Shown here one piece after another: positions 41,627 through 59,033 of a DNA stretch of 64,000 nt. Numbering within the stretch: position 1 is the stretch's first letter; every line of letters begins with the position of its first letter. The notes under the pieces are model-generated. The model was not told the DNA's origin, did not search any database, and saw nothing but the letters and a program-made list of their open reading frames with translations. The translations under genes and the position numbers were made by a program. The DNA comes from Nitrospinaceae bacterium (GTDB taxonomy: Bacteria > Nitrospinota > Nitrospinia > Nitrospinales > Nitrospinaceae), in the NCBI GenBank assembly GCA_029261395.1, contig JAJDBJ010000065.1, positions 1 through 64,000 of the forward strand, in the 5' to 3' direction.

Positions 41627-42643
41627 TCAATCATAAAATGATTGAAATATATCCTCTTCTATTAGTTTGATTGATTTTTGAACTTTTCGGGTATTGTGAA
41701 AACTGGCAACGTGATACAAAGCATCTCCTCCATTTACCAGGGGAAGTTGTAATTGCCCTATAATAATACCCTCAAAAGGAGCTTTAATCTCCCCTTGAGA
41801 CTTCCCGAATTGGTCTGTAACAACCCCCAGCAAGTCACCTTCTTTAATATGTGTGCCAATAGCCTTTAAGTTATGGATAAGGCCACTCGCAGGCGCGCGT
41901 AACCACTGGGTTCCCCAGGAAATAAATACTTCCCGTCGCGCGGAGTGCTTTTTCTTAGGCAACATTCCAATGGATCGCATAACAGAGAGACAACCCTGCA
42001 TTCCAATTTGGATGATTTTTTCGTCAAACCGCAAGGCCTCTCCTCCTTCAAAAAGGAGCATCGGGATATCTTTTCTTCGTGCCGCCTCCCTTAACGAACC
42101 ATCGCGAATGTTGGAATTCAGAATTACGGGCACCCCAAACTCAATGGCCAACTCCTTAGTTTCGACATTATCCAGGTAAGCACGAATTTGAGGAAGGTTG
42201 GTTCTATGGATGGCCCCGGTATGCAAATCAATTCCATGAGTAGATTTTTTAACGATTTCCCTCATAAATATATCGGCCAATCGTGCAGCCAGGGAACCAC
42301 TTTTAGAGCCAGGAAAGGATCGATTCAAATCCCTGCGATCAGGCAAATACCGCGACAGCATATTGAAGCCAAAAATATTGACTACAGGAATGGCGATTAA
42401 AGTCCCTTTCAATTTTTTAAGGGATTTATTTTTTAGTATCCGGCTAACTATTTCAGTTCCATTGATTTCATCGCCATGAATAGCCGCTGAAATAAACAAA
42501 ACAGGTCCGTCTTCCTTACCACGGATCACCTCAACGGGAATTGAAAGATCCGTGCCGTCATAAAGACTGGAGACTGCGAGTTCAATTTTTCTGCGTTCCC
42601 CTTTTTTGATCGAAATGCCGCCTATTTTGAAATCAGCAGCCAT
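41627..42643 (-). CDS. Succinylglutamate desuccinylase/aspartoacylase family deacylase
   Basis: 338 residues of the M14-like AstE/AspA zinc deacylase family: zinc ligands His56 and Glu59 in AAIHGDEING, the DRRDLNRSFPG substrate block, and the third ligand in GIDLHTGA. A C-terminal beta (barrel-sandwich-like) domain (about 250-325) includes GDLLGVVTDQFG. The enzyme removes an acyl group from an N-acyl amino acid. The TAATG overlap with the RimK stop shows translational coupling, and the RimB-RimK-deacylase set suggests trimming or removal of glutamate chains; the actual substrate is unknown. Confidence 0.9.
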   Translation of the reverse strand: MAADFKIGGISIKKGERRKIELAVSSLYDGTDLSIPVEVIRGKEDGPVLFISAAIHGDEINGTEIVSRILKNKSLKKLKGTLIAIPVVNIFGFNMLSRYLPDRRDLNRSFPGSKSGSLAARLADIFMREIVKKSTHGIDLHTGAIHRTNLPQIRAYLDNVETKELAIEFGVPVILNSNIRDGSLREAARRKDIPMLLFEGGEALRFDEKIIQIGMQGCLSVMRSIGMLPKKKHSARREVFISWGTQWLRAPASGLIHNLKAIGTHIKEGDLLGVVTDQFGKSQGEIKAPFEGIIIGQLQLPLVNGGDALYHVASFHNTRKVQKSIKLIEEDIFQSFYD

Positions 42644-43548
42644 TAACCTCTCCCGGCCGTTTTGGTATTCCCAGGCTTCGCGTCCTTTTCCATAAAGTGA
42701 ATGATTTTATCGGCAATATCGATTCCAGTGGCTGTTTCTATACCTTCAAGGCCGGGGGAGGAGTTGACTTCCATCACCAACGGGCCGTGGTTGGACCGTA
42801 ACAGATCCACTCCGGCCAGATTTAATCCCATGGCCTTGGCTGAGCGGACAGCGGTACTCCTCTCCTCGGGAGTTATCTTAATCGGCACAGAACTCCCTCC
42901 GCGATGCAGGTTGGATCGAAATTCGCCCTCCTTACCCTGTCTTTTCATAGCGGCCACGACCTTATCATCGATAACAAAACACCTGATGTCCGCACCGCCC
43001 GCTTCCTTAATAAATTCCTGGACCATGAAATGAGCATCCAGTTCCATAAATGCACCGATAACACTTTCTGCCGCTTTATTCGTTTCAGCCAGCACAACCC
43101 CTTTACCCTGTGTTCCCTCCAGTAGTTTAACCACCAGCGGCGCACTGCCGACCAGGGCAATAATATTTTCCGTATGCTTGGTTGAATGGGCGAACCCTGA
43201 CACAGGCAAACCGATGCCTTTTTTTGCTAGAATTTGAAGAGAGCGGAGCTTGTCGCGTGAACGCGAAATGGCCACCGATTCATTCAATGGATAAACTCCC
43301 ATCATCTCAAATTGCCGCAAAATAGCAGTTCCGTAAAAGGTGTTGGAAGCCCCGATACGCGGAATGACAGCGTTAAACTCATTAAGCACCCGGTCTTTAT
43401 AATGAACCGAAGGTTTGTGTGAAGTGATATTCACATAGCATTTTAAATAATCGATGACTTCGGCCTCGTGCCCTCTTTTCTTAGCCGCCTCAACCAACCT
43501 CTTTGTAGAATAAAGTTTTGGCCCTAAGGATAATATCCCAATATTCAT
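42643..43548 (-). CDS. rimK: RimK-type alpha-L-glutamate ligase
   Basis: 301 residues, the same size as E. coli RimK. The ATP-grasp core has [44 protein letters not shown] and [29 protein letters not shown] (shown in parts), with conserved Mg2+ and ATP residues. RimK adds glutamates to the C-terminus of ribosomal protein S6 and can make poly-alpha-glutamate. The retropepsin-like protein upstream overlaps it by 4 nt, the usual RimB partner that controls or reverses RimK action. Confidence 0.93.
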
Positions 43549-44006
43549 TTTTTGCCTTTCTGGGTTTTCGCCTTTTTCAATAACAAAAAAGATTTCCCTG
43601 AATCCACGGTATAGCGGTTCTTCAACGCGCTTCTCCCTAACAGCAATCGAAATCCCATAAGATCCCTGTTAACGAGAGATAATTCTACAGGGTAAACATC
43701 TTCACCGATTTTTATTTCTGTTTTAATGACAGGCCGAACGGATAATTCCCCATTAGAGCTTTTTATCTCACGCAGACTGATCATTTTAGCTGACGCATCA
43801 ATTACAGGACGCCATTTTCTTTGAACGGGATGGATTGTAAATTTAACAATACCAGTTCTTTTTGATACTCTGATATTAGAAACGTGAAGAGCAGAAGTCC
43901 TGGCACCTGTATCCATTTTCGCTTTAATCGTTTTTATTCCTAATTCGGGAAACGAAACCCACTCTCTCCAGCCAATGATGTCGAGAGCCTTTTTTTTCTT
44001 TTTCAT
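43545..44006 (-). CDS. RimB-like retropepsin-type protein (ATP-dependent zinc protease family)
   Basis: 153 residues. The family core [15 protein letters not shown] (an Asp-Thr-Gly retropepsin-like site), the following [14 protein letters not shown], and [15 protein letters not shown] match the RimK-associated 'ATP-dependent zinc protease' family, known as RimB in pseudomonads. No signal peptide. The start lies 45 nt after MgtE and its stop overlaps rimK. It is expected to act with RimK on glutamylated ribosomal protein S6. Confidence 0.88.
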
Positions 44007-44051: not shown

Positions 44052-45362
44052 CTATAAAAAATTAGAAAGTAAAGTCGCGATTCCCAGAAAAGAGAGGAAT
44101 CCCGCTATGTCCGTCACGGTCGTAAGGATAATGGATGAAGCAGTGGCAGGGTCCTGCCCGAGACGAGTCAACACGATTGGCACGGAGGCTCCGGCGATAC
44201 CCGCGGCAACCATGGAAAGAACCATGGATACGCCAATAACGAAGGACAAGCCCAAAGAGTGACTCCAAAAATAGACTCCTATTGAAGTGGTCAAGGCGAC
44301 AGCGACACCATTGACAAATCCTACTGTAGCTTCCTTCAGGACAACGGCGGTCCATTGGCGGACACTGATTTCCTTCAGGGCCAGTCCCCGCATGGTAACA
44401 GCCAGGGCCTGCGCACCTGCATTTCCGGATTGCCCGGCCACCACCGGCAATAAAATAGCCAAAGCAGTAAACTTGGCAATAGTACCCTCAAAAATACCGA
44501 CCACTCCAGCCGCCAGAAAAGCGGTCACAAGATTGATGTGCAGCCAGGGCAACCGTTTTCTGATGGAAAAACCGGGTTTGGAAAGCGCGCGCTCGTCCTT
44601 GCTGACACCAAACATGGTTTGAATATCTACAGTCGCTTCTTCTTCCGCCGCCTTGACAAGAGCGTCATATCCCACTACGCCAATCAGGCGTCCCGAAAGA
44701 TCGACAACAGGTAAATTTGACAATAAAAACTCTTCCAACTTCGCAACTACTTCTTCCCGGGAATCTGTTGGGTTAACAACCGTTCGTATAGGAAATGAAA
44801 GTTCGCTTAAGAGCTGCATCGGTTCAGCCAATGCCAGATCCTGCATATCTACTCGTGAATTCAGTTGATTTTCTGAGTTTACGAGGAATAGGGTCCTCCG
44901 GGTGGATTTATATTTTAAAGTTCGAAGTCTTCTCAAGCATTGCCTGACTTCCATGTTTTCGCGGAAAACATGGAAGCGAGTGTCCATTAGACGGCCCGCC
45001 GAATTGTCGGGATAGGCCGCCATGACTTCGAAATCTTTTTTGACTGATGGGTCCACCAGAGATAAGCATCGCTCTCTTTCACCTTCATTCATTTGTCCGA
45101 GCAGGGTCACCATCTCATTTGGATTCGATTCAATCATTAAATTTTGAATGACTGGGTCTGGCAAATGACTAAAAACAGAAGAAGCAATATTAGGAGTAAG
45201 ACGTTTCAGGGTAGATAAAATCAAAGGGATGGATTGGTCGGCCAAATACGACCCTGCCACGGCAGGCTCCAATTCCTCGATTTGTTCAACCGCTTCAGTA
45301 GGATAATCCAATAGAAACTGGCGGTTTAATACGTCGATAGCTGTGGTAGCGTTACCGGTCAT
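44052..45362 (-). CDS. mgtE: MgtE-type magnesium transporter
   Basis: 436 residues with the full MgtE plan: N-domain of helical repeats (about 1-125), a pair of CBS domains (about 130-255) and five membrane segments (about 275-436) with the ion-path signature ILLPVVAGQSGNAGAQALAV. CBS domains normally sense cytosolic Mg2+ and close the channel. Its ATG overlaps the stop of the upstream soluble MgtE-N/CBS protein (TAATG). Ion specificity could also be for other divalents. Confidence 0.95.
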   Translation of the reverse strand: MTGNATTAIDVLNRQFLLDYPTEAVEQIEELEPAVAGSYLADQSIPLILSTLKRLTPNIASSVFSHLPDPVIQNLMIESNPNEMVTLLGQMNEGERERCLSLVDPSVKKDFEVMAAYPDNSAGRLMDTRFHVFRENMEVRQCLRRLRTLKYKSTRRTLFLVNSENQLNSRVDMQDLALAEPMQLLSELSFPIRTVVNPTDSREEVVAKLEEFLLSNLPVVDLSGRLIGVVGYDALVKAAEEEATVDIQTMFGVSKDERALSKPGFSIRKRLPWLHINLVTAFLAAGVVGIFEGTIAKFTALAILLPVVAGQSGNAGAQALAVTMRGLALKEISVRQWTAVVLKEATVGFVNGVAVALTTSIGVYFWSHSLGLSFVIGVSMVLSMVAAGIAGASVPIVLTRLGQDPATASSIILTTVTDIAGFLSFLGIATLLSNFL

Positions 45363-46213
45363 TAGCGGCTTTCTTGGTTGTCATGAGATCGATGATCTAT
45401 AGAGGACGATAGGACTGCCTGAACAAGCCATGACAATGTTGAAGTGTAGGCGCTCACACAATCTTCCAATATTGCGTCGGTTTGGTTTGATGATTCATCA
45501 CCCGTGGATAAAGATAATCCCCTGGTTAGATTTTTTTGAGTCAACATTCCAATGAACTTTCCCTTTCGATTGATTACGGGAAGGGCATCAAAACGATCCC
45601 AATCGGCCAAAGATGCCGCTGACTGAAGAGAGCTACGGTCAAGAATCGAATTAAAATCAGTTGCCATTATTTTTGAAACCATACTGCCATCTTTGGCGGT
45701 GGCCAATTTCAACAAACTCAACAAACCCGCAATTGTTCCATCGGCTTTAATCACACAAGGTGCATAATCAATGACATCCTTGGAGTTTCGAAGTGATCTT
45801 CTAATAGCACCTATCAGAAGAGTCTCTGAAACCGGTGGAATGTCAGAATTCATCCAGGCGCCTACCGAACTTTCTGGAAAGGACAGCCGTTTTTCTAAAA
45901 AAACTTTTTTGTCGGCTGATAAAAGTCCCAGCAGCGAGTTTATGGTTGCACGTGGAGCCAGACGGAGCATGGAGAGGGCGGAAGTGGACCTCATGCCCTG
46001 CATCAGGTCAGCCGACGACTTGGGATCAATGGTTAAAAAGCATTGCCCCGCATATTGAGGCGCCAGTAGGCCTAGCAGTCGCGACCCTGTTTCTGGAGGG
46101 ATCTGCTCTATAAAGGCTACTGTGTCCTCCACCGCTAGTTGCTCCAGTGCTTTGGCCGCATCACGAGGGTGGTTTGTTGCAAAGTTTAAAGTTAATTGAG
46201 GAATTTCACTCAT
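45362..46213 (-). CDS. Soluble MgtE N-domain/CBS protein without membrane segments
   Basis: 283 residues resembling the cytoplasmic half of MgtE: helical MgtE-N-like repeats (about 10-125; FIEQIPPETGSRLLGLL) and a CBS pair (about 125-245; SKIMATDFNSILDRSS, ALPVINRKGKFIGMLTQKN). It has no pore segment. Its start overlaps the upstream MscS-like gene by 8 nt and its stop overlaps MgtE. It could act as a regulatory partner that pairs with the full MgtE or senses Mg2+/nucleotide alone; this is inference. Confidence 0.83.
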   Translation of the reverse strand: MSEIPQLTLNFATNHPRDAAKALEQLAVEDTVAFIEQIPPETGSRLLGLLAPQYAGQCFLTIDPKSSADLMQGMRSTSALSMLRLAPRATINSLLGLLSADKKVFLEKRLSFPESSVGAWMNSDIPPVSETLLIGAIRRSLRNSKDVIDYAPCVIKADGTIAGLLSLLKLATAKDGSMVSKIMATDFNSILDRSSLQSAASLADWDRFDALPVINRKGKFIGMLTQKNLTRGLSLSTGDESSNQTDAILEDCVSAYTSTLSWLVQAVLSSSIDHRSHDNQESR

Positions 46214-47045
46214 CAGTCATATCCGGAATGATCAATAAAGAAGGTTCCGCATGAAACGCTTTTGCAGGAACCGTCATTCTTCCTTCATTGGTAGACAAAA
46301 TAATCGAAACCGGGGTCAACTCGAGAATAACGCCCTCCGTATTGCCAAGCCTGATTTTTTGACCCGGTTTGTAAATTTTTTGAACATGATGCCCGCTGAT
46401 CAGATTACTGGCCAAATCCCTGGTACCCAGCCCCAGAGCAAGCGCTAAACTGCCAAGAATGGCTCCCATGATTATCGCAAGGAGGGTAATCAGAAAACCG
46501 ACTTCAATACCGATCTGGTCCAAGCCGATGATCACTGCCGTAAACAGGATTACGCCCTGAACAATTCCCCCCAGAATTTTGCTGTGGGAAATATGGGCGG
46601 AAGCAGCAGCGGATACTGTGAGGTCCCGTCCCAGAGAACTGAACAAAACACCCGCCAAAATAATGATGCCACCGGCTACCAGACTCGGGAAATAGGCAAC
46701 CAGCCGGTTGAGCCAGATGGAAAAAGCGGTCAAACCCAGAATTTGCGTGGAAATTATTGCGAAAACAAGAATTGTTCCCCAAAAAATAATTCTACTGAAA
46801 AGGACAACTAAAGGCTCAGACAATCGAAATTTGGCTAGATTACCTTTTGAAAATAATCGGGATAATATGCGATTGAGTATTCCGGTCATTCGGATACTCA
46901 TAGACCTTAGAAAACTGGCAACTCCCCAACCAAAAAGCATTAACAAGGCTGAACCTAAAAGGTTGGGCAAATAAGAATTGAACTGGTCAAGCCATTGCCC
47001 GGGGATTTTTTGCAGATCTTTTAAAAAGTCTATTAATTTATCCAT
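46206..47045 (-). CDS. MscS-like mechanosensitive channel protein (1)
   Basis: 279 residues with about five hydrophobic segments (near 29-48, 82-103, 115-136, 156-174, 182-205) followed by the MscS beta domain start (GLGTRDLASNLISGHHVQKIYKPGQKI). The conserved TM-helix repeat type (CmpX-like) is suggested by the paired LPNLLGSALLMLFGWGVAS and FPSLVAGGIIILAGVL. The C-terminal domain is short: it ends shortly after the beta domain. Likely a small-conductance or regulatory channel of the inner membrane. Second of the pair with 47083-47946. Confidence 0.85.
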   Translation of the reverse strand: MDKLIDFLKDLQKIPGQWLDQFNSYLPNLLGSALLMLFGWGVASFLRSMSIRMTGILNRILSRLFSKGNLAKFRLSEPLVVLFSRIIFWGTILVFAIISTQILGLTAFSIWLNRLVAYFPSLVAGGIIILAGVLFSSLGRDLTVSAAASAHISHSKILGGIVQGVILFTAVIIGLDQIGIEVGFLITLLAIIMGAILGSLALALGLGTRDLASNLISGHHVQKIYKPGQKIRLGNTEGVILELTPVSIILSTNEGRMTVPAKAFHAEPSLLIIPDMTDE

Positions 47046-47082: not shown

Positions 47083-47946
47083 TTATAAACTGAAAAACCC
47101 CGTTCCCTCTTTTACGCCCCGCACTTTTGATTCAATGAGAGTTGAATTGGGGATATAAACAAGATCTCCATTTTTGTGACGAACCCGAGACGTAACAGTT
47201 CCTATTTCTTCCAAGGTTCCGGTATCGTCATCAATCTTGACAGAGGCACCGTTTTTAAAAGTGTCCCGCGCATAAACCCCTGAAATAATATTTTTGGAGA
47301 CTTCCTTGGTACCCAGTCCCAGTGAAAGGGCCAATGCAACACCTGAAGCCATTAATGTTATTTCAACCAGACTATTCAAAAGGGAAGTTTCAATCTCCAG
47401 TTGCTCAAGAACAATCACACCGATCACAATAACGAGTACGCCGTAAGCAAAATTGGATAAGGGCTTACCATATTCAACTCCAAATCCCTGGACTCCGCTT
47501 CGAATCAGATTTCGCACAAAATGAGCTAACAGAAGGCCAATCACTGCTATCAAGCTGGCGCCAATCACTTTAGGTAAATATAGAACCAGGGATTCGATGG
47601 TTTGTGAAACTTTCTCTAATCCTAAAGTTTCTGAGGCCGAAATGATGAACGTCAGCATTATAATCCAAAAAGCAATTTTGCCGACTATTTCAGAAGGTTC
47701 AATTGTCATTCCGGCTTTATTCAAAACATCTTTAATTCCCACTTTCTCACTGGCACTATCAACCCGAACCTTTTTCAAGAAACCCGAGACAACGAATTTT
47801 ATAAATTTTGAGAAAAAGTAGCCAAGCAACACAATGACCAACGCGCCTACCAGATTGGGTGTGAACAGGGCTACTTCAGTCCAAAGGTCTTTCAATATAG
47901 CGAGAATGGTGTCTCTCCACATTTCAGCTTCTATTTTTAAATCCAT
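47083..47946 (-). CDS. MscS-like mechanosensitive channel protein (2)
   Basis: 287 residues, a paralogue-like relative of the neighbour: repeated TM-helix units (TPNLVGALVIVLLGYFFSK, LPKVIGASLIAVIGLLLAH), a pore-like helix (SGVALALSLGLGTKEVSKNIISG), and a beta domain with DTFKNGASVKIDDDTGTLEEIG and VYIPNSTLIES. AAGGAG seven bases before the ATG. Inner-membrane channel for release of solutes under turgor change, by family. Confidence 0.88.
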   Translation of the reverse strand: MDLKIEAEMWRDTILAILKDLWTEVALFTPNLVGALVIVLLGYFFSKFIKFVVSGFLKKVRVDSASEKVGIKDVLNKAGMTIEPSEIVGKIAFWIIMLTFIISASETLGLEKVSQTIESLVLYLPKVIGASLIAVIGLLLAHFVRNLIRSGVQGFGVEYGKPLSNFAYGVLVIVIGVIVLEQLEIETSLLNSLVEITLMASGVALALSLGLGTKEVSKNIISGVYARDTFKNGASVKIDDDTGTLEEIGTVTSRVRHKNGDLVYIPNSTLIESKVRGVKEGTGFFSL

Positions 47947-48325: not shown

Positions 48326-48898
48326 CTAATTTTTTTTCAGTTTTTTTTCATACTGCGTCTTAAATCTCTCCAAAGCCCTGTAAAGTCTCATTTTTACCGT
48401 ACTCAGTTTCAGCTTGTTCGCTTCGGCAATTTCCTGAATCGTTAATCCAGAGATGAACTTCAAAGTGATTACTTCCCGATCCAGGCTGGACAACTCATAT
48501 AAAACCTCATGGATTTCGGGTATATCGGGCTTAGACGAAGGGGATACTGCAGAATGGGAGGATTCTTTTATGATATCGGAGGTTAATTTTTGGTGGGTAT
48601 TCGAGCGTTTTATATTTTGCTTTCTTTTGGTAAGACAATAATTGTGAGCTATTCGGTATAGCCAGGTTCGAAATGATGCCTTTTGTTGGAAGGCATGAAT
48701 CTTATGAAAGACCCTTAGAAAAATATCCTGGCAGGCTTCTTCAGCGTCAGAAGGGTCACCTAATAAATAGTGGCAGGTTTTGAATACGGAGGGTTCATGC
48801 TTTTTTAAAAGTTCCTCAAAGGATTGAGTTACATAGGGAAGCTCCTCTTTGCATTTTTGTATTAATAACTTATCCTCATCGTTTGAAGGGCCATCCAT
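48326..48898 (-). CDS. ECF RNA polymerase sigma factor (1)
   Basis: 190 residues: sigma region 2 (about 30-98; YLLGDPSDAEEACQDIFLRVF, FRTWLYRIAHNYCL) and region 4 (about 130-182; LDREVITLKFISGLTIQEIA, STVKMRLYRALERFK). It is the first gene of a minus-strand set including two MscS-like channels, MgtE, RimK and CDF genes, which it may control. No zinc-finger anti-sigma gene is adjacent. The first ATG in frame is used; other ATGs are close by. Confidence 0.93.
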   Translation of the reverse strand: MDGPSNDEDKLLIQKCKEELPYVTQSFEELLKKHEPSVFKTCHYLLGDPSDAEEACQDIFLRVFHKIHAFQQKASFRTWLYRIAHNYCLTKRKQNIKRSNTHQKLTSDIIKESSHSAVSPSSKPDIPEIHEVLYELSSLDREVITLKFISGLTIQEIAEANKLKLSTVKMRLYRALERFKTQYEKKLKKN

Positions 48899-49118
48899 AA
48901 AAACTCATTTTATGTATAAGTTCTATTGTAAGAAAATAGGTGGGTAATTTTATTCCATATTGAATTTTATCGAGCTTCAATGAAAAATTAAAACTATTGT
49001 TATCTATAAAGAAGCACGGTCGCTGTATTTTAATAGATAAAGACTTTTGTTTAACATACAATGAATTCAAAAAATTCCCAAAATTAATATAACAATTCCT
49101 CTAGGGGAGATGTGTGAT

Positions 49119-51320
49119 ATGAAAGTTGCCGTCATATACAACAAACAGCAGGATGCGGAAGGCGTGATCAATGTCTTCGGGATGCAAAATCAGGAGACCT
49201 ATAATCCCAACACGGTCGAGAAGGTCGCTTCCTCTTTGGAGAAGGGCGGGCACAATGTTCGTATTATCGATGGCAATATAAAAGTTATCGAACAGTTGGA
49301 GGCTTTCATGCCGCGCGTGGTTCAAGGTGAACAGCCGGGAATGGTGTTCAACATGGCTTATGGCATTCAGGGCGTCAGTCGCTACACACATATGCCATCG
49401 CTGTTGGAAATGGTGGGGATTCCTTACGTCGGTTCCAGTCCCGCCGGGCATGGCGTCGCTCTCGATAAAGTGACCACCAAGGTGATGGTCCATGCGTCTG
49501 GTTTGCCCACCGCTCCCTATTGGGTGTTTTTCTCTCCAGATCAGATTCCCGACGACCTGCCGTATCCCGTCATCACCAAGCCCAAGATGGAGGCGGTTTC
49601 TCTCGGAATTGAAGTGGTTCACAACAAAGTCGATCTGCAGGAAACCATCGCCCGGTTAGTGGAAGAATTCCGCCAACCCGTACTGGTTGAACAATTCATT
49701 CCGGGAAGAGAGTTTGCGGTGGGACTACTCGGTAATCAGGACGCGGAAATATTACCGGTGGTGGAGATTGATCTGGAAGGAGATCCCAATGCAATCCAAA
49801 CGCTGGGTGACAAGCTCAAGACACCGCGCGGCAAAGTCTGCCCGGCCAAGATTGACGACAAGCTTCAGGCTGAACTGGCCCGCCTGACCCGCGAAACGTT
49901 TCGTGCTTTGGGTGTTTACGATTTTTCTCGCGTTGATTTTCGCATGGACGATAAGGGGAATTTGTATATCCTGGAACTCAACTCCATGGCCAGCTTGGGA
50001 GCGACCGGTTCCTACGTGACTGCTGCCAAGGCCGCTGGGTACTCTTTTGAAAGTCTGATCAACCGCATGCTGGACGTGGCGGTAGAACGCTACTTCGGAA
50101 AGCAACAACTTGAAAACCTCGGCGAGCAGGAATCGCTGATGCCCAGCTTTCTCAAAAAGACCACGACCTCCCTTCATACCCGGCTTCGCAGTTATCTACG
50201 GGGCAATTTGTCGACCATGGAAGCCAGCCTGCAAAAGATGGTTGAGATTAATTCCTATGTCCGCAATATCGATGGGATCAATGCCCTGGGGCAGTGGATT
50301 GGAAGTGTGTTAAGTCGCATGGGTTTTCAACGTGAAGTCATCACCCGCGCGGAATTCGGAAATATGTTGTACTTCACAAATCACACCAGCGAAACCAACG
50401 ATATACTTGTGGTCGGGCAACTAGACAACCCTTCTCATTTTCAAGACTTCGTTCCCTACGCGGTAGACCGTGGAAAAATTTATGGAACGGGGGTTTCCTG
50501 TGGGAAAGGCGGGCTGGCCATTCTGCTGGCGGCTTTGCAGTCGCTTCGTTATACCCGGTCGCTGAAAAAAGTGAAGTGCGGCATTTTGCTCGTGTCGGAC
50601 GAATCTTCCGGCGGGCGGTCCTCCAAATCGTTGGTGGAGGATTGTGCATCCAGATCACGAGCGGTAGTGGGCCTCCAGGGAGCCGGGCTTTCCGGAGAAT
50701 TAATTGTATCCACTTCAGGACAAATCAAATTCAACATTGAAATTAACAGGGTCACCCGCAAGGGAAAGGCGGACTTCAAGGATAAATATGATCTGGTGAG
50801 CTTTATTTCCCAAAAAATCATCAGCCTTAGAAAACTGAATGATGAAGTGGAAAGTCAAAGCGTTACCATCACCAGTATCGATACCCATGGAGTGGGTGAC
50901 CAGCCCCCGGACCATGCGTCGCTGGTGCTCCATATCCGTTACCGCAACCCGAGTCAAAAAGAAGCGTTGGAAGCCCAGGTATTCAAGCTGTTTGAAGTTC
51001 CGGCCACCAGTCCTCTTAAAATCCACATCACCCGGGGATCTTCCCGCAAGCCTCTGCTTGAAACTCCCGTTAATTCTCGGTTCTTTGAAAAAATCGGAAG
51101 CCTGGCGAAGGCAGTGGAAGTGCGGGTTCAGAAAACCCACACCGATGTCCCTTCTGTCCTTTCATCCATATCTTCTGAGATTCCCCACATCGAAGGTTTG
51201 GGCCCGGTAACCGGCGGGCAGGGAACCAAGAGTGAATATGTGGTTCGCGACAGCCTGATCGACCGGTCTCTCCTGCTGGCGTATACCATTTCCCAATCCT
51301 CGAAAGATTTCTCTATATGA
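49119..51320 (+). CDS. D-Ala-D-Ala ligase-like ATP-grasp fused to a degenerate M20-like domain
   Basis: 733 residues from the ATG at 49119, nine bases after GGGGAG (an ATG three codons earlier lies on top of that site). Residues 1-320 resemble Ddl ligases: SPAGHGVALDKVTTK, VEQFIPGREFAVGLLG, RVDFRMDDKGNLYILELN. Residues about 370-733 resemble an M20 peptidase (ILVVGQLDNP, KIYGTGVSCGKGGLAILLAA, LLVSDESSGG), but metal ligands are changed: the usual His is Gln434, the Asp is Cys461 and the second Glu is Ser496; Asp436 and Glu495 remain. So it may ligate amides while the second domain binds but does not cleave. Its ATGA overlap couples it to the GGT gene. Confidence 0.85.
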   Translation: MKVAVIYNKQQDAEGVINVFGMQNQETYNPNTVEKVASSLEKGGHNVRIIDGNIKVIEQLEAFMPRVVQGEQPGMVFNMAYGIQGVSRYTHMPSLLEMVGIPYVGSSPAGHGVALDKVTTKVMVHASGLPTAPYWVFFSPDQIPDDLPYPVITKPKMEAVSLGIEVVHNKVDLQETIARLVEEFRQPVLVEQFIPGREFAVGLLGNQDAEILPVVEIDLEGDPNAIQTLGDKLKTPRGKVCPAKIDDKLQAELARLTRETFRALGVYDFSRVDFRMDDKGNLYILELNSMASLGATGSYVTAAKAAGYSFESLINRMLDVAVERYFGKQQLENLGEQESLMPSFLKKTTTSLHTRLRSYLRGNLSTMEASLQKMVEINSYVRNIDGINALGQWIGSVLSRMGFQREVITRAEFGNMLYFTNHTSETNDILVVGQLDNPSHFQDFVPYAVDRGKIYGTGVSCGKGGLAILLAALQSLRYTRSLKKVKCGILLVSDESSGGRSSKSLVEDCASRSRAVVGLQGAGLSGELIVSTSGQIKFNIEINRVTRKGKADFKDKYDLVSFISQKIISLRKLNDEVESQSVTITSIDTHGVGDQPPDHASLVLHIRYRNPSQKEALEAQVFKLFEVPATSPLKIHITRGSSRKPLLETPVNSRFFEKIGSLAKAVEVRVQKTHTDVPSVLSSISSEIPHIEGLGPVTGGQGTKSEYVVRDSLIDRSLLLAYTISQSSKDFSI

Positions 51321-52948
51321 GCCTGAAAAATATCGAAGGCCGTTTTCAACCGACCGAAGACGGCAAATGCGCATGGTCGGCGAACGGCATGGTGTCCACC
51401 GCTTTCCCGGAAGCCACCCAGGCCGGCGTGGAAATTCTGGAAGCCGGCGGCAACGCCATTGATGCCGCCTGCGCGGCGGCGTTTGCGCTTTCCGTCTGCG
51501 AACCCCAGGCCAGCGGCCTTGGGGGACAGAGCATGGCTCTGCTTCATACCCAAGATAAAACTTTGGCGTTGGACGGATCCAGCCGTGTTCCCTCATTCGC
51601 GCATCTCAGTCGGATGGAATCAGCACAGATGTTGACGGGTTACCGCGCCACTACCGTTCCCAGTACCCCGGCGCTTCTCGGATACATGCATTATACCTAT
51701 GGCCGTGCCAGCTGGAGGACGGTTCTGGAACCTGCCATTCGGATTGCCAAAGAAGGTTACCGCATCACCGAGTTGCAGAGCCGTTTGCAAACACGTGAGC
51801 AAGAGTCTTTTCTCAATGTACCCAGCCAATCCGGTGCAGGATATTTTCTGAAAGAAGGAAAAGAACCCTATGCGGTGGGCGATAAGTTTGTACAACACGA
51901 TTTGGCTCAAATGCTTGAATTAATCACTCAAAAAGGAGTCAAAGAATTTTATACGGGTGAGCCGGCCTGGCAAATTGATCAGGACATGAAGGACAACGAA
52001 GGGTTCCTGCGTTACGAAGACATGGCTTTGATTCCCTGGCCGGTGTTGCGGAATCCGATCCATCGCAGATATCGTGGGCTGTCCGTTTATACCATGCCAC
52101 CGCCTGCCGCAGGCCGCACCCTGTTGTTGATTCTTCTCATGTTGGGTAATCTCCCCTCCAAATTTTTGAAGGAGCGTTCGCCGGAGTCCTATCACTTTGT
52201 TGCCGAGACCTTTCGCAAGGCGCTCTTGAATCGAAAAGAAAGGCCCTTCGATCCTAATATTTATCCGCAACTGCCCCAGGATAAACGCATCCTCAGTCTC
52301 GACTTTGCAAAAATGCTGGCGAGATCCATTCACGATGAAATGGACCCCACTCTGCCCATGGTGGATCTGTTTCCCGCCGTCAACGATACCACCCACTTGT
52401 CCGTAATGGACAAGCAGAATAATACGGTGGGGATCACGCAATCGATTGAACGAGTCTATGGCTCGCACACCGCCGCAAGGGGTTTGGGTTTTCTATACAA
52501 TAATTATATGAGTTCGCTGGAGACGAAAGACCCTTCCCATCCGTATTACCTGCGCCCCAACGCGATTCCCTGGAGTATGTCGGCACCCATTATCGTATTT
52601 CGCAAGAAACAGCCCTGGCTGGTGGCGGGCAGTCCCGGAAGCGAGCGCATTTTTTCAGCTGTGGCCCAGTTTCTTTCCCATATCCTCGACGGCAATCTCC
52701 CCATATCGGATGCGATGGTGGCACCGCGGATTCATTGCTCGATTGGCGGTAAACTGAGTTATGAAGAAGGGCGTCTGGAGGATAAGGTCGTGGAGTATCT
52801 TAAAAAGGTAGGCTATAAAATGGATGCACGCGAACCCTATGCTTTTTATATGGGAGCCATACACGCCGTCATGAAAACGCAAACCAAGGATGGATTCCAG
52901 GGAGTTGCGGAAATCCGGCGCGACGGAACAGCGGCTGGACCGAATTAA
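51317..52948 (+). CDS. Gamma-glutamyltransferase family protein
   Basis: 543 residues. The autoprocessing site and nucleophile are seen as Thr358 in NDTTHLSVMD, with GLGGQSMALL and YGSHTAARGLGFLYNNYMSS around the active site. No signal peptide, so probably cytoplasmic, unlike E. coli Ggt. Family enzymes cut or transfer gamma-glutamyl groups, for example from glutathione or polyglutamate. It begins in the stop of the ATP-grasp/M20 fusion gene (ATGA), which argues that the two act on one product. Confidence 0.92.
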   Translation: MSLKNIEGRFQPTEDGKCAWSANGMVSTAFPEATQAGVEILEAGGNAIDAACAAAFALSVCEPQASGLGGQSMALLHTQDKTLALDGSSRVPSFAHLSRMESAQMLTGYRATTVPSTPALLGYMHYTYGRASWRTVLEPAIRIAKEGYRITELQSRLQTREQESFLNVPSQSGAGYFLKEGKEPYAVGDKFVQHDLAQMLELITQKGVKEFYTGEPAWQIDQDMKDNEGFLRYEDMALIPWPVLRNPIHRRYRGLSVYTMPPPAAGRTLLLILLMLGNLPSKFLKERSPESYHFVAETFRKALLNRKERPFDPNIYPQLPQDKRILSLDFAKMLARSIHDEMDPTLPMVDLFPAVNDTTHLSVMDKQNNTVGITQSIERVYGSHTAARGLGFLYNNYMSSLETKDPSHPYYLRPNAIPWSMSAPIIVFRKKQPWLVAGSPGSERIFSAVAQFLSHILDGNLPISDAMVAPRIHCSIGGKLSYEEGRLEDKVVEYLKKVGYKMDAREPYAFYMGAIHAVMKTQTKDGFQGVAEIRRDGTAAGPN

Positions 52949-52949
52949 A

Positions 52950-53132
52950 TTAGGAGCCGAGATTGTTTTTCTTTTCTTGGATTTCTGCCCGGCGAGTTTT
53001 TGCCAGTTTTCCCAGTTCACCCAGCGCTTTTCTGGCGCGAGCGGCGGCGGCCTTTACACTCTTTTGCTCAAAATTTTCACTTTCGGCGACGTAGGTATCG
53101 AATGCGGAAATTATTTGCTCATGTGTTGTCAT
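52950..53132 (-). CDS. Small Hc1-like histone-like DNA-binding protein
   Basis: 60 residues, alpha-helical and basic. The core KSVKAAAARARKALGELGKL followed by AKTRRAEIQEKKN matches the N-terminal domain of chlamydial Hc1-type histone-like proteins as I recall it. No Lys/Ala tail, unlike the protein at 29229-29477. GGGAG about ten bases before the ATG. Ends 1 nt from the converging GGT gene. A role in nucleoid structure is inferred. Confidence 0.72.
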   Translation of the reverse strand: MTTHEQIISAFDTYVAESENFEQKSVKAAAARARKALGELGKLAKTRRAEIQEKKNNLGS

Positions 53133-53172: not shown

Positions 53173-53205
53173 GATATCCGGGGAGCAAATTGCTCCCCGG
53201 ATATC
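53173..53205 (-). terminator. Long perfect-palindrome terminator
   Basis: A 14-bp stem (GATATCCGGGGAGC 53173-53186 / GCTCCCCGGATATC 53192-53205) is followed on the minus strand by TTTTTATAAATA. It ends transcription of the poly-Asp peptide gene and separates it from the Hc1-like gene. Confidence 0.93.
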
Positions 53206-53248: not shown

Positions 53249-53440
53249 TTATTTGTGCTTGTCATCATCGTCGTCGTCATCGTCGTCATCATCTTTATCT
53301 TTGTCGTCATCATTCATCAAGATGACGGCATTATCATCTCCCAATACCAGGGTACTGGATGACGCAAAACCGAGAGTGGCCGATAACAGAAAAGCGATTA
53401 ATGTGAGAATGAACAAAGAGGTTTTGATTTTGTTAATCAT
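53249..53440 (-). CDS. Secreted poly-aspartate peptide
   Basis: 63 residues: signal peptide (FILTLIAFLLSATLGFASS), a short hydrophobic middle (TLVLGDDNAVILMN), then an almost pure acidic tail with eleven Asp in a row ending KHK. GGAG seven bases before the ATG and its own strong terminator make it a real, monocistronic gene. The tail should bind calcium or other cations. No family recognised. Confidence 0.75.
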   Translation of the reverse strand: MINKIKTSLFILTLIAFLLSATLGFASSSTLVLGDDNAVILMNDDDKDKDDDDDDDDDDDKHK

Positions 53441-54008: not shown

Positions 54009-54776
54009 ATGTCTTGTTTCCCCGTACTATTATCCATTCCCCACGGTGGTACCGAAGTGCCTGCGGAAATCCGCGACCGGGTGACGATTTCCGCCAAGGA
54101 TCAATTTGAAGACAGCGACGCTTTCACCCAGGGAATTTACGGCCTCGGAAACGAAGTGATGGTGCAGGTGCAATCGCCGGTGGCGCGGGCGTTTGTCGAT
54201 ATGAACCGGGCGGAAGAGGACCGGCCTCCGCAGAATCCCGACGGCATCGTTAAAACCCAAACCTGCCACGGCAAAGCCGTTTACCTGCCTGGTCAGGAGC
54301 TGGATGACGCATGGACCCAGCGGCTACTCGACTCCTACTACTTTCCCTATCACCGATCCATCACCACCGCCCTGACCCAAAATCCTGACCTTCAACTGGC
54401 GTTGGACTGCCATTCCATGGAGAAGGTGGCACCGGTCATTTCGCCCGACCCCGGTCAACCGCGCCCTCTGATTTGCTTGGGAAACAACCACGGCAAAAGT
54501 TGCCCGCAGGAAATGGCGGACCGATTGGCAGAATGTTTTCGTGAGGGGTTTGGCCTGGAGGAAAAGGATGTGGCGATGAACAAACCGTTCGCCGGGGGCT
54601 ATATCACCCGGACTTATGGAGAGGCGGCTTTGCCCTGGGTCCAGGTGGAGATGAATCGAAGCCTGTACCTGTCCGAACCCTGGTTCGATGCCGAAACTTT
54701 AACCGTCCAACCCGAACGCCTTCAATATCTCAACCAATGTTTCCGCAAAACCCTTTCGCTATTTTTTAAGAAATGA
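54009..54776 (+). CDS. N-formylglutamate amidohydrolase family protein
   Basis: 255 residues of the FGase family, a zinc-dependent aminopeptidase-like fold. LLSIPHGGTEVP near the start, RAFVDMNRAEEDRPP, LALDCHSMEKVAP and YITRTYGEAALPWVQVEMNR are the family blocks with the expected metal-binding His/Glu/Asp. HutG-type enzymes split N-formylglutamate into formate and glutamate. Here no histidine-degradation genes adjoin it; instead it stands 136 nt before the Anbu/ATP-grasp set, so it may cleave an N-acyl-glutamate made there. Confidence 0.85.
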   Translation: MSCFPVLLSIPHGGTEVPAEIRDRVTISAKDQFEDSDAFTQGIYGLGNEVMVQVQSPVARAFVDMNRAEEDRPPQNPDGIVKTQTCHGKAVYLPGQELDDAWTQRLLDSYYFPYHRSITTALTQNPDLQLALDCHSMEKVAPVISPDPGQPRPLICLGNNHGKSCPQEMADRLAECFREGFGLEEKDVAMNKPFAGGYITRTYGEAALPWVQVEMNRSLYLSEPWFDAETLTVQPERLQYLNQCFRKTLSLFFKK

Positions 54777-54912: not shown

Positions 54913-56379
54913 ATGAATTTCGATTCTTACAATCCTGAAAATTTTTATGATGAGTTTTTCTTGGAATCCGGGAAACCCAGACCGGAAGTTGAGAAACTGG
55001 TCAACAGGATTAATTCCTTTGGAAAATCCGATTTGTCCACACGGCGTAGGTCCGCCAACTCTGCATTCAAGCAGATGGGAATCACGTTCGGAGTTTACGG
55101 CGACAATAAAGGTCTGGAAAAGATTTTTCCATTCGACATTATTCCCCGGATTGTCAATGCCCACGATTGGGATTTAATCGAGCGCGGTGTCAAACAACGG
55201 GTTCATGCCCTGAACCTGTTCATTCAGGATATTTATAACGATAAGAAAATTGTAAAAGATGGAATTCTGCGGAATGAGTTCATTCTCTCCTCGGTTGCTT
55301 ATCGCAAGGAATGTGAAGGTTTAACACCTCCCAAAAACATTTGGTGTCATGTCAGTGGTATCGATCTGGTTCGTGATCACGACGGGCAATTTTACGTTCT
55401 GGAGGATAACCTCCGCTGTCCCTCCGGAGTTTCTTATGTTTTGGGAAACCGACGTGTCATGAAGCAGACCTGGCCCGCCGTGTTTGAAGCACTTCCAATT
55501 CGTCCGGTAGAGGATTATGCCGGCAGGCTGGCGGAAACCCTGAGGTATTTAATACCGGAATCCATCTTGAAACCTAATATCGGTATCCTCACCCCCGGTA
55601 TTTACAACTCCGCTTATTTTGAGCACTCGTTTCTCGCCCAGCAAATGGGTGAGGAGTTGGTCGAAGGCCAGGACCTGGTGGTTATGGACGACGTTGTCTA
55701 TATGAGAACCACCAAGGGGTTTGAACGGATACACGCCATCTACCGGCGGATTGACGATGAGTTTCTGGACCCCACAGTCTTCAATCCGGATTCTCTTTTG
55801 GGCGTCCCCGGAATCATGAAATCCTATCGTAAAGGCAAGGTGGCGATGGCCAATGCCCCCGGTGCGGGAATTGCCGATGACAAAGCCATTTATGCTTTTG
55901 TTCCAGAAATCATCAAGTATTACACGGGAGAAGACGCAATCCTTCCGAATGTGCCAACCTATGTTTGTGAAGATGAAAAACAGCGACAACATGTCATTGA
56001 TAATATAGAAAATTTTGTTGTCAAAACAGCGCATGGGTCTGGCGGGTATGGCATGCTGATTGGTCCTTTTTCAACCAAAAAGGAGCAAAAAGATATGATC
56101 GATAACATTTTACGCGAACCGAGAAATTACATTGGCCAACCGGTCATCCAGCTTTCAAGGGTTCCTGTTATGGTCAAGGACCACTTCGAGGGTCGACATG
56201 TGGATTTACGGCCCTATGTGCTCTACGGAAAAGACATTTATGTTCTTCCCGGCGGATTGACGCGTGTGGCCCTTAAAAAAGATTCTCTTGTCGTCAATTC
56301 CTCGCAGGGTGGAGGCAGTAAAGATACCTGGGTTCTAGAGGAAGAAATTATTAAAACCGATAGGCCGTCTGATGTCTGA
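54913..56379 (+). CDS. Circularly permuted ATP-grasp ligase (COG2308-type)
   Basis: 488 residues. The DUF404/DUF407 pattern is clear: FPFDIIPRIVNAHDWDLIERG, VLEDNLRCPSGVSYVLGNR, HAIYRRIDDEFLDP, KTAHGSGGYGMLIGP and LRPYVLYGKDIYVLPGGLTRVAL. It is a permuted ATP-grasp amidoligase that should make an amide or peptide bond. It leads the conserved set ligase-alpha-E-Anbu-transglutaminase with gaps of 33 nt or less, so one transcript. The substrate of this system is not known. Confidence 0.92.
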   Translation: MNFDSYNPENFYDEFFLESGKPRPEVEKLVNRINSFGKSDLSTRRRSANSAFKQMGITFGVYGDNKGLEKIFPFDIIPRIVNAHDWDLIERGVKQRVHALNLFIQDIYNDKKIVKDGILRNEFILSSVAYRKECEGLTPPKNIWCHVSGIDLVRDHDGQFYVLEDNLRCPSGVSYVLGNRRVMKQTWPAVFEALPIRPVEDYAGRLAETLRYLIPESILKPNIGILTPGIYNSAYFEHSFLAQQMGEELVEGQDLVVMDDVVYMRTTKGFERIHAIYRRIDDEFLDPTVFNPDSLLGVPGIMKSYRKGKVAMANAPGAGIADDKAIYAFVPEIIKYYTGEDAILPNVPTYVCEDEKQRQHVIDNIENFVVKTAHGSGGYGMLIGPFSTKKEQKDMIDNILREPRNYIGQPVIQLSRVPVMVKDHFEGRHVDLRPYVLYGKDIYVLPGGLTRVALKKDSLVVNSSQGGGSKDTWVLEEEIIKTDRPSDV

Positions 56380-56412
56380 GTTGACCAAGAGCGCCTATCA
56401 CTGGACCATATC

Positions 56413-57402
56413 ATGTTAAGTCGAGTTGCAAATTCCTTGTACTGGATGAACCGATATCTTGAGCGGGTGGAAAATACTGCGCGTTTGATCGAATCACAGC
56501 TCCACATGTTGCTCGATTTACCCTCCATGAGACAAGATCCAAACGCCTGGAAGCCGCTGGTGGACATCACCGGTGACTATAAATATTTTTCTGAAAAATT
56601 TGAAAGTTACGATCGAGAGAATGTCATATACTTTCATACATTCGATAAAAATTATCCCCACTCCATCACTTCCTGTATTACCGCCGCACGCGAAAATGCA
56701 CGATCGGTAAGGGAAATTATCCCTTCCGAAATGTGGGAAAACATTAACAACCTTTATCTGGATATTCTAGAGCCAGGATCAAGTCTTAGGGCTTCAAGTG
56801 CCCCCCATAAATTTTACTTCAATATCAAAATGTCATGCCACCTGATTCAAGGCATTGCCTACTCCACTATGGCGCATGGGGAGGCTTGGAACTTTTCTGA
56901 GTTGGGCCGGCTTTTGGAGCGAGCAGATAAAACCTCGCGTATTCTGGATGTTAAATACTTCATCATCCTTCCAAGAAGCGATTTTGTGGGCTCTTCGCTG
57001 GACAGCGTTCAGTGGACAGCGCTTTTAAAATCAACGAGTTCTCTGGAAATGTACCGGAAGCGGTTCAATCTGATCAGCTCCAAAAATATTGTCGACTTTC
57101 TCATTTTTGATCGTGAGTTTCCCCGTTCAATACGATATTGTATCCATCATGCAGAGCGGGCTTTTTTTAATATTAGCGGAACCCCTTTCGGGGTCTACGA
57201 TACCGATCTGGCCAGACAGTTTGGAAAACTGATGGGGAAATTAAATTATTCCTACGTTGATGAAGTGATGGGCATAGGCTTGCATCAATTTCTGGATGAA
57301 ATTCAGTCGGACTTGAATAATGTGAGTTCCGTCATTCACGACAATTTTTTTGCCGTCAAACCAGTATCTGAATTAGATCAATCAGGAGTACAGACTCAAT
57401 GA
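56413..57402 (+). CDS. Alpha-E domain protein (COG2307-type)
   Basis: 329 residues, mostly helical. The family start LSRVANSLYWMNRYLERVENTARL is distinctive, and GEAWNFSELGRLLERADKTSRILD holds the conserved charged residues. Alpha-E proteins nearly always accompany the permuted ATP-grasp and are thought to modify or assist it, but no activity is proven. Overlaps the next gene by 4 nt (ATGA). Confidence 0.9.
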   Translation: MLSRVANSLYWMNRYLERVENTARLIESQLHMLLDLPSMRQDPNAWKPLVDITGDYKYFSEKFESYDRENVIYFHTFDKNYPHSITSCITAARENARSVREIIPSEMWENINNLYLDILEPGSSLRASSAPHKFYFNIKMSCHLIQGIAYSTMAHGEAWNFSELGRLLERADKTSRILDVKYFIILPRSDFVGSSLDSVQWTALLKSTSSLEMYRKRFNLISSKNIVDFLIFDREFPRSIRYCIHHAERAFFNISGTPFGVYDTDLARQFGKLMGKLNYSYVDEVMGIGLHQFLDEIQSDLNNVSSVIHDNFFAVKPVSELDQSGVQTQ

Positions 57403-58139
57403 CTTTTTGTGTAGGGATTAAAATTAACGATGGAATCATCGCTTTGGCAGACTCCAGAATTACCAGTGGAGGCGTACAAACGGTTGCCCGAAAGGTTACC
57501 CTGCATCAAAAACCAAACCAAAGCCTGTTTCTGATGACCTCCGGCCTGCGTTCGGTCCGGGATAAGTCCCTTACCTATTTTGAAGAAACGTTTAACGAAG
57601 CCGGCCAGCACTTTGACAAAATGTACAAAGCCGTCAATCATTTTGCTGAGCAAATCAGGAAAGTGGCGGATGAAGACAAGTCGTCCCTCGAAGAGAGCGG
57701 TCTCTCTTTCAACTTACATTCTCTTATTGGCGGACAACTTGAGAAGGATGAAGAGCATAAACTGTTTCTGATTTATCCTCAGGGGAACTGGGTCGAAATC
57801 ACAAACGAAACCCCCTACCAGATCATTGGTGAAGGAGGCTACGGCAAGCCCATTTTGGATCTGGGATTGAATCATAATTCCAGTCCGATCACCGCACTCA
57901 AGGTCGGGTTTCTCGCCTTTGACGCCACGCGCAGAAGCGCCACCGGAGTGGGATTTCCGATTGACGTTGTTTATTACAAAAAAAATTCTTTTAAATTCAG
58001 CGAATACCAGTACGACAAAGAGGAAATGCAGGAAGTGTGCGCTTGGTGGAGGGAACACCTGACGCGATCTCTCGAGGAATTACCCGCTAATTGGACCAAC
58101 AAGGTGTTGCCTTCCTTCAACACCGTATCTGGGGTCTGA
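57399..58139 (+). CDS. Anbu proteasome-like peptidase
   Basis: 246 residues of the Ntn-hydrolase proteasome/HslV superfamily, Anbu group: MTFCVGIKINDGIIALADSRI at the N-terminus (Thr2 becomes the nucleophile after Met removal), GEGGYGKPILD and LAFDATRRSATGVGFPIDV. Anbu self-assembles into rings; a peptidase role on gamma- or alpha-glutamyl-like peptides has been suggested but is unproven. It sits between alpha-E and transglutaminase as in other bacteria. Confidence 0.93.
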   Translation: MTFCVGIKINDGIIALADSRITSGGVQTVARKVTLHQKPNQSLFLMTSGLRSVRDKSLTYFEETFNEAGQHFDKMYKAVNHFAEQIRKVADEDKSSLEESGLSFNLHSLIGGQLEKDEEHKLFLIYPQGNWVEITNETPYQIIGEGGYGKPILDLGLNHNSSPITALKVGFLAFDATRRSATGVGFPIDVVYYKKNSFKFSEYQYDKEEMQEVCAWWREHLTRSLEELPANWTNKVLPSFNTVSGV

Positions 58140-58142
58140 AGT

Positions 58143-59033
58143 TTGTTTTTGCGCATCCAGCACCTGACAAAGTTTTCCTATTCCAAACCTGTGTTTATGG
58201 AACCGATGACGGTTCGCCTGCGGCCCCGCTCGGACTGCTGGCAAAAGCTTCACCAGTTTAAAATGGAGCTTGATCCTTCTCCGGAAGGAAAAACCGAATT
58301 GGTGGATCTTGATGGCACCTCCTCCACTTTCCTGTGGTTCAGTAATACTCACCCCAATTTGAATATCACCACCACTTCCTGGGTGGAAACTCTGAGAGAG
58401 AATCCGTTTGATTATATTCTGAGGGACCCGGAATTTATTGAATTACCCGTGCGGCTTTCGAATGATTACCAGTTTCCTCTCGAACCGTATCTCCATCGAA
58501 ATGCTCCGTCGGCGACGGTCGATGATTTTGCCAAGAAAATATCTCAGGAGGTCAACCACAATACGGTTTCATTTTTGAGCACCCTGTGTTCTCAAATTCA
58601 TGAAATAATGGATATCATCCTACGTCTCACCGGCGATCCCATGTCTCCCGAGGAGTTGCTCATAACTAAAAAAGGTGCCTGCCGGGATTTGACCGTTCTT
58701 TTTATAGATGCCTGCCGGTCCCTGGGGCTTCCCGCACGGTATACCAGTGGTTACTACTATGGGGATGAAGAATTTTCAAACCGTGAGCTACACGCATGGG
58801 CGGAAGTTTATCTGCCGGGTGGGGGTTGGCGGGGATATGATCCCAGTATTGGCCTTGTGGTTTCAAACCAACATGTGGCCGTCGCTTCCGCTCCTACCTG
58901 GATTTTAACCACGCCGACCACCGGGAATTACCGCGGAACGGGTGCCGATTCCTCCCTGGATTTCGAAATTCAGATGGAAACGGCCGATACCCTGGACAAA
59001 CTGGTCCACCCCCACCACCAACCTCAAAAGTAA
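58143..59033 (+). CDS. Transglutaminase-like protein with N-terminal beta domain
   Basis: 296 residues from a TTG 3 nt after the Anbu stop. An N-terminal Bact_transglu_N domain (RIQHLTKFSYSKPVFMEPMT) precedes a papain-like transglutaminase core with Cys in KKGACRDLTVLFIDACR, His in LHAWAEVYLPGGGW and Asp in GYDPS. No signal peptide. It may cleave or make isopeptide bonds on the product of the neighbouring ligase. Last gene of the Anbu unit. Confidence 0.92.
   Translation: MFLRIQHLTKFSYSKPVFMEPMTVRLRPRSDCWQKLHQFKMELDPSPEGKTELVDLDGTSSTFLWFSNTHPNLNITTTSWVETLRENPFDYILRDPEFIELPVRLSNDYQFPLEPYLHRNAPSATVDDFAKKISQEVNHNTVSFLSTLCSQIHEIMDIILRLTGDPMSPEELLITKKGACRDLTVLFIDACRSLGLPARYTSGYYYGDEEFSNRELHAWAEVYLPGGGWRGYDPSIGLVVSNQHVAVASAPTWILTTPTTGNYRGTGADSSLDFEIQMETADTLDKLVHPHHQPQK

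Follow-up and report, generated by a model that had tools for sequence, protein, structure and literature searches.

A Ddl-like ATP-grasp ligase fused to a probably inactive M20 peptidase domain, and its conserved operon in bacteria and archaea, marine nitrifiers included

Organisation of the locus and architecture of the fusion protein

The stretch of DNA analysed here (the window) comprises 64,000 nucleotides of contig JAJDBJ010000065.1 of a Nitrospinaceae bacterium, and encodes on its forward strand a 733 amino acid protein, hereafter FUS (49,119–51,320), in which a D-alanine-D-alanine ligase (Ddl)-like ATP-grasp ligase (residues 1–330; 49,119–50,108) is fused to an M20-type domain resembling carboxypeptidase G2 (CPG2; residues 351–733; 50,169–51,317). 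A Shine-Dalgarno-like motif (AGGGGAG; 49,103–49,109) is located nine nucleotides 5' of the start codon at 49,119, where the homologues also begin, with a second in-frame ATG at 49,110. The next gene on the same strand encodes a 543 amino acid gamma-glutamyltransferase (GGT)-like N-terminal nucleophile (Ntn) hydrolase (51,317–52,948), and the two reading frames overlap by 4 bp in a shared ATGA (51,317–51,320), as had been observed in a first-pass annotation of this DNA. A gene of the N-formylglutamate amidohydrolase family (FGase-like; 54,009–54,776, forward strand), which in most relatives completes the operon as its third member, lies 1,060 bp beyond the GGT gene in the window, with two small opposite-strand open reading frames (ORFs) in between.

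The presence of a Ddl-like ligase and an M20-type domain in one chain, proposed in that annotation, is borne out by Pfam matches (Dala_Dala_lig_C, residues 126–318, 6.8e-32; Peptidase_M20, residues 446–724, 3.2e-10), by the nearest solved structures (D-Ala-D-Ala ligases and CPG2 for the first and second halves, respectively), and by hhalign comparison of the M20 part of the family against CPG2 (99.9 % probability). An AlphaFold model, built on a 42-sequence alignment (predicted local distance difference test, pLDDT, 84.4; predicted template-modelling score, pTM, 0.55), contains both folds and matches the Ddl structures with target-normalised template-modelling scores (TMt) of 0.82–0.84 and CPG2 (PDB 1cg2) with a TMt of 0.77 (Foldseek E 2.4e-27), with the low pTM indicating that the relative placement of the two halves is not fixed by the model. 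FUS is thus, by sequence and predicted structure, a Ddl-like ATP-grasp domain fused to an M20 domain nearest to CPG2. The same colinear two-domain protein was found in 24 of 61 genomes searched (that of the window plus 60 others, related to it at levels between genus and order), while scanning a single genome for each species yielded 94 relatives, of which 80 were kept. Given that it recurs in these genomes, and that 80 or more loci from many phyla encode it, the fusion cannot be attributed to chance.

The ligase domain

The residues which bind ATP and magnesium in Ddl (K97, K144, E148, S151, E180, E187, R255, D257, E270 and N272) are invariant in all 69 FUS relatives aligned. By contrast, the residues of the D-Ala pocket that were compared (S150, Y216 and S281; the reference segment excluded E15) are replaced in all 69, such that FUS cannot be considered a Ddl. 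FUS also scores far below the Ddl cut-off values (TIGR01205, 137 versus 245.65 bits; PRK01372, 155 versus 243 bits), and a canonical Ddl is encoded adjacent to MurB elsewhere in the same genome. FUS thus shares with the D-alanine-D-alanine ligases (PF07478, TIGR01205) the ATP-grasp fold and every ATP/Mg residue compared, but differs in its scores, its substrate pocket and the fused M20 domain. Taken together, the retained ATP/Mg site, the altered D-Ala pocket, the low scores and the separate Ddl suggest an active-looking ligase with other substrates. On sequence grounds, FUS represents an ATP-grasp carboxylate-amine ligase subfamily of its own, which is predicted to be functional.

The metal site of the M20 domain

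CPG2 is a glutamate carboxypeptidase (MEROPS M20), and its metal ligands H112, D141, E176, E200 and H385 were compared with the aligned residues of FUS and its 69 relatives. None of the five is retained in the window, where they are replaced by Gln434 (50,418–50,420), Cys461 (at the position of the bridging ligand; 50,499–50,501), Ser496 (in the Glu495-Ser496 codons, 50,601–50,606), Gln520 (50,676–50,678) and Gln701 (51,219–51,221), respectively. The first three substitutions, together with the retained Asp436 and Glu495, lie exactly where the first-pass annotation had placed them, and the last two extend the loss to the remaining ligands. Among the relatives the H112 position is occupied by His (40), Asn (22) or Gln (3), that of D141 by Glu (39), Arg (16) or Asp (5), that of E176 by Ser (46), Thr (13) or Ala (7) and that of E200 by Lys (33), Ser (18) or His (5), with no constant residue at H385; across the family position 461 may be Glu, Arg, Asp, Cys, His or Lys. 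When Asp and Glu are taken as equivalent, 23 relatives keep none of the ligands, eight keep one, thirty-six keep two and two keep three. These column counts show that loss of the metal ligands is family-wide and is fullest in the branch to which the window belongs. An intact two-metal M20 site, against which the predicted structure was also checked (pLDDT 84), can be ruled out for the aligned ligands.

Other features of the site are retained to differing extents. Asp436 (50,424–50,426), the equivalent of CPG2 Asp114, is kept in 68 of the 69 relatives, whereas Glu495, the equivalent of the general base Glu175, is kept in the window but not throughout the family (Asp in 41, Glu in 13, Asn in 8). 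Arg643 (51,045–51,047) is kept in 61 of 69 and aligns with CPG2 Arg324, which binds the carboxylate of the substrate. The M20 domain of FUS thus resembles CPG2 in its fold and in the equivalents of Asp114 and Arg324, but differs in retaining none (window) to three (family) of the metal ligands, and is probably catalytically dead, judging from these alignments. The earlier proposal, in which an enzyme that makes bonds shares one chain with a binding domain that is probably non-catalytic, is supported.

The GGT-like enzyme, the FGase-like protein and the glutamine amidotransferase alternative

A search for the fusion and its GGT partner in other genomes, as the first-pass annotation had advised, recovered both, with a GGT gene directly 3' of FUS in 53 loci and a 4 bp overlap in 34 of these 53 pairs. 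The GGT-like protein belongs to PF01019 (2.2e-111), and shares with the E. coli gamma-glutamyltranspeptidase the fold family, a Gly-rich loop and the Ntn nucleophile Thr358, which is kept in all 56 operon GGTs. It differs in having no apparent signal peptide, in forming its own clade and in its contacts to the gamma-glutamyl group; R114 is lost in 55/56 (Ser in 55), Q430 in 55/56 (Tyr in 55) and D433 in 50/56 (Ala or Ser), with the last kept in six.

In 37 loci an FGase-like gene directly follows that of the GGT. FGase genes occur within 3 kb of FUS in 18/27 FUS genomes (expected 0.08), though the family was found in only one of fourteen control genomes; this comparison, like those for the MscS and CorA genes below, ignores the relatedness of the genomes by counting each as an independent case. 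The FGase-like protein belongs to PF05013 but falls short of the HutG model (TIGR02017; 102 versus 278.75 bits). It shares with N-formylglutamate amidohydrolase the family and the conserved His/Asp/Glu positions, and differs in reaching less than half of the cut-off score and in being linked to FUS rather than to histidine breakdown genes.

In some phyla, a class-I glutamine amidotransferase (GATase) replaces the GGT. Stand-alone GATases with an intact Cys/His/Glu triad adjoin FUS, or occur within approximately 1 kb of it, in Bacteroidota, Bacillota, Fusobacteriota and Latescibacterota, and the four such genomes tested all lack an operon-type GGT, having only generic GGTs (28–33 % identity). 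The GATase cases fall in two separate places in the FUS tree, and the operon-associated GATases are nearest to GMP synthase subunit A and not to gamma-glutamyl hydrolases. Neither this alternative, nor the FGase-like third gene, nor the channel-rich neighbourhood described below was mentioned in the first-pass annotation.

Several loci depart from the common arrangement. A distant FUS of the Polyangiaceae (33 % identity; locus L110, 1,398–9,495) retains the FUS-GGT-FGase order, with an additional GGT and an MscS-like gene. An apparent FUS-GGT gene fusion in the Polyangiaceae (a 1,259 amino acid frame) was rejected as merely a GC-rich open frame upstream, with the start MKIAVVYN internal to it. 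In Propionigenium maris, an ORF divergent from FUS (locus L082, 7,568–8,863, reverse strand) combines an FGase-like N-terminal half with a GNAT acetyltransferase C-terminal half. Locus L069 (1,087–12,181) encodes an ABC transporter pair, a GGT, an aminomutase and three tandem FUS-like proteins; the aminomutase is nearest to glutamate 2,3-aminomutase, with a score under the cut-off, and the cluster may serve the synthesis of beta-amino-acid peptides.

Distribution and horizontal spread

FUS occurs in Nitrospinota, Nitrosomonas, Nitrosopumilaceae, Binatota, Latescibacterota, Gemmatimonadota, Chloroflexota, ANME-2, Bacteroidota, Fusobacteriota and others, and the FUS-GGT-FGase operon spans from Nitrospinota to ammonia-oxidising and ANME archaea. 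Thirteen of 85 Nitrosomonas genomes contain FUS, and in the FUS tree the Nitrosomonas sequences, including those of the isolates N. marina Nm71 and N. aestuarii Nm36, nest inside the Nitrospinota clade in three places. The operon has thus been acquired horizontally by marine Nitrosomonas at least three times.

ATP-grasp relatives which lack the M20 domain are found on thirteen rhizobial plasmids (41–44 % identity). On the Bradyrhizobium plasmid NZ_CP088281.1 (locus L109, 4,282–9,047) one such ligase forms a tight operon with a KamA-type aminomutase, a GGT (41 % identity to P0002) and an RloB-like 7TM_transglut protein, the only observed instance of a GGT beside an M20-less ligase. The recurrence of the ligase and GGT without the M20 domain suggests that the latter is an added module. 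The RloB-like 7TM gene derives from an operon linked to hypo-osmotic tolerance (PMC12239564). The RloABC and RimBK systems (PMC12239564) likewise combine an ATP-grasp protein with a peptidase, but the FUS operon differs in having no retropepsin and in that its ATP-grasp domain is Ddl-like and not RimK-like.

Three further roles were considered and rejected. FUS has no match in phages at 1e-30 and is not supported as a phage gene, and the PADLOC models gave one weak match only (E 0.0043), providing no support for a defence system. As regards a substitute for ectoine, FUS and EctC do not overlap in Nitrosomonas (13 and 6 of 85 genomes, respectively; expected 0.9, not significant), but both are present in two of the five EctC genomes of Nitrospinota, indicating that FUS does not simply replace a known osmolyte.

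Genomic neighbourhood

Upstream of FUS, all on the reverse strand, the window encodes an extracytoplasmic function (ECF)-type sigma factor, divergent from FUS and a putative regulator (48,326–48,898), an MscS-type channel (47,083–47,946), a second MscS-like membrane protein with MS_channel_1st_1 only (46,206–47,045) and two MgtE-type proteins, one with a channel domain and the other with MgtE_N and CBS only (44,052–46,213). MscS genes are found within 10 kb of FUS in 11/27 FUS genomes (expected 0.7) and CorA genes in 8/27 (expected 0.23), with MgtE-type genes likewise frequent. Further upstream, AstE/AspA-like, RimK and RimB-like genes lie in a row (41,627–44,006, reverse strand), with the same trio present in three other loci (L023, L037 and L039).

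Between the GGT and FGase-like genes, the two reverse-strand ORFs encode a 60 amino acid histone H1-like Hc1 protein (52,950–53,132; PF07432, 3.2e-10) and a 63 amino acid protein, signal-like at its start and ending in a poly-Asp tail (53,249–53,440), of which a copy occurs at the same site in only one close relative (G007; 75 % identity). A terminator-like, perfect 16 bp inverted repeat with a 1 nt loop (53,173–53,205) adjoins them. No RNA families were found near the FUS operon. Downstream (54,913–59,033, forward strand) are genes for a circularly permuted ATP-grasp protein, an Alpha-E protein, an Anbu-like proteasome and a transglutaminase, matching the Anbu operon already known (PMC6376114).

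Proposed function and alternative explanations

For the substrate class, the chemistry, the product and the roles of the M20 domain and of osmotic change, we infer the following scheme from the computed features above. The FUS ligase would activate a carboxylate with ATP and join it to an amine or to ammonia, while the dead CPG2-like domain would probably hold a glutamate-type carboxylate substrate or product via Arg643 and present it to, or regulate, the ligase. The cytoplasmic GGT-like Ntn-amidase or the GATase, together with the FGase-like amidohydrolase, would supply, trim or recycle amide-bound glutamate. The combined output would be a small amide- or peptide-linked compound of the glutamate type, whose synthesis and remodelling would most likely help the cell to withstand salt or osmotic change, a reading which we advance tentatively, at somewhat short of an even chance. 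In view of the nearby channel genes and of the spread among marine nitrifiers, the product is best guessed to be a solute. By analogy, and not homology, such a role may resemble that of the ngg-asnO-peptidase operon (PA3459–PA3461), which makes the osmolyte N-acetylglutaminylglutamine amide (NAGGN; PMC8070244). There, a peptide ligase, a glutamine amidotransferase and a peptidase are encoded in a single operon, with an osmotic role, but the FUS operon has a ligase of another subfamily, and neither asnO nor ngg was found among the conserved FUS neighbours examined with Pfam and NCBIfam, with a GNAT domain observed only once (L082).

A number of points weigh against this reading. The loss of R114 and, in most cases, of D433 suggests that neither free glutamine nor ordinary gamma-glutamyl peptides are likely to be bound by the operon GGT. 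The significance of the enrichments is overstated by kinship among the genomes, though the cases span several phyla, and the channel genes could be near FUS for other reasons. Marine and saline habitats were taken from record names only. Furthermore, FUS is patchy in Nitrospinota (11/31 good genomes), where it also occurs alongside EctC.

In a special form of the same scheme, ammonia released from glutamine by the GGT-like enzyme or GATase would be used by the ligase to form a primary amide. This form could account for the alternation of two unrelated glutamine-type amidases at one place, and has precedents in carbamoyl-phosphate synthetase, which combines a class-I GATase with ATP-grasp, and in AsnO, which also uses glutamine nitrogen. 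With the glutamine pocket of the operon GGT altered and a channel or complex only putative, it is considered rather unlikely. We regard as unlikely, to a slightly greater degree, a tagging system in which a protein or RNA-made peptide receives amino acids from the ligase, the dead M20 domain binds the acceptor C-terminus and the amidases take the tag off again. RimK and RimB act in this manner on ribosomal protein S6, dead peptidase domains can act as peptide readers, and RimK, RimB-like and AstE-like genes are close by in some Nitrospinota loci, with an Anbu-type operon in the window. However, RimK/RimB and Anbu adjoin FUS in few loci and not family-wide, the neighbours of the operon include no conserved substrate protein, and the GGT and FGase families usually act on small molecules.

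The product suggested in the first-pass annotation, an unusual gamma-glutamyl or D-amino-acid compound, would require a ligase that builds dipeptides out of D- or gamma-linked residues, and a GGT that moves or trims the gamma-glutamyl group. The GGT and the class-I GATase which substitutes for it both come from families acting on gamma-glutamyl amides, and CPG2 is a glutamate carboxypeptidase; the coupling to a GGT is supported. A D-amino-acid product is unlikely given the loss of the three D-Ala-pocket residues in all 69 relatives, and a plain gamma-glutamyl product is weakened as the 56 operon GGTs have lost most of the contacts to the alpha-amino and alpha-carboxylate groups; the affinity of the GATase to GMP synthase subunit A also argues against it, and the proposal as a whole appears improbable. 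A catalytic M20 domain that uses a different chemistry or metal, with Cys461, Gln434 and Asp436 forming a new site in the branch of the window, would fit the near-invariance of Asp436 and the His found at position 434 in 40/69, but is highly improbable considering that E176 is replaced by Ser, Thr or Ala in 66/69 and that, with position 461 varied, no constant new ligand set is evident. An ordinary cell-wall D-Ala-D-Ala ligase with decoration, as the Pfam and NCBIfam matches to Ddl families might suggest, can effectively be excluded on the basis of the sub-cut-off scores, the missing pocket residues, the canonical Ddl beside MurB and the occurrence of FUS in archaea which lack peptidoglycan.

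Significance

The literature search recovered no paper joining the FUS, GGT and FGase genes, within a coverage that included neither the original NAGGN paper nor the 2009 ATP-grasp survey (Iyer 2009), and papers on salt adaptation in marine nitrifiers name known osmolytes only (PMC8026999, PMC8115632). On this coverage, the locus represents an amidoligase operon of the ATP-grasp kind, as yet uncharacterised, in which a pseudo-peptidase is fused to the ligase. The fuller proposal, that an undescribed operon of marine ammonia-oxidising archaea and bacteria, marine nitrite-oxidising bacteria and ANME archaea makes a glutamate-type amide solute, the substrate of which is held by the fused dead carboxypeptidase domain, is at present doubtful. 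FUS nevertheless illustrates clearly how a peptidase domain has become the likely substrate-binding part of a ligase, and the predicted binding centres on a single residue, Arg643. Marine nitrifiers drive the nitrogen cycle of the ocean. The persistence of this operon across Nitrospinota, Nitrosopumilus and ANME-2 archaea, together with its uptake by marine Nitrosomonas on at least three occasions, suggests that its product merits a search.

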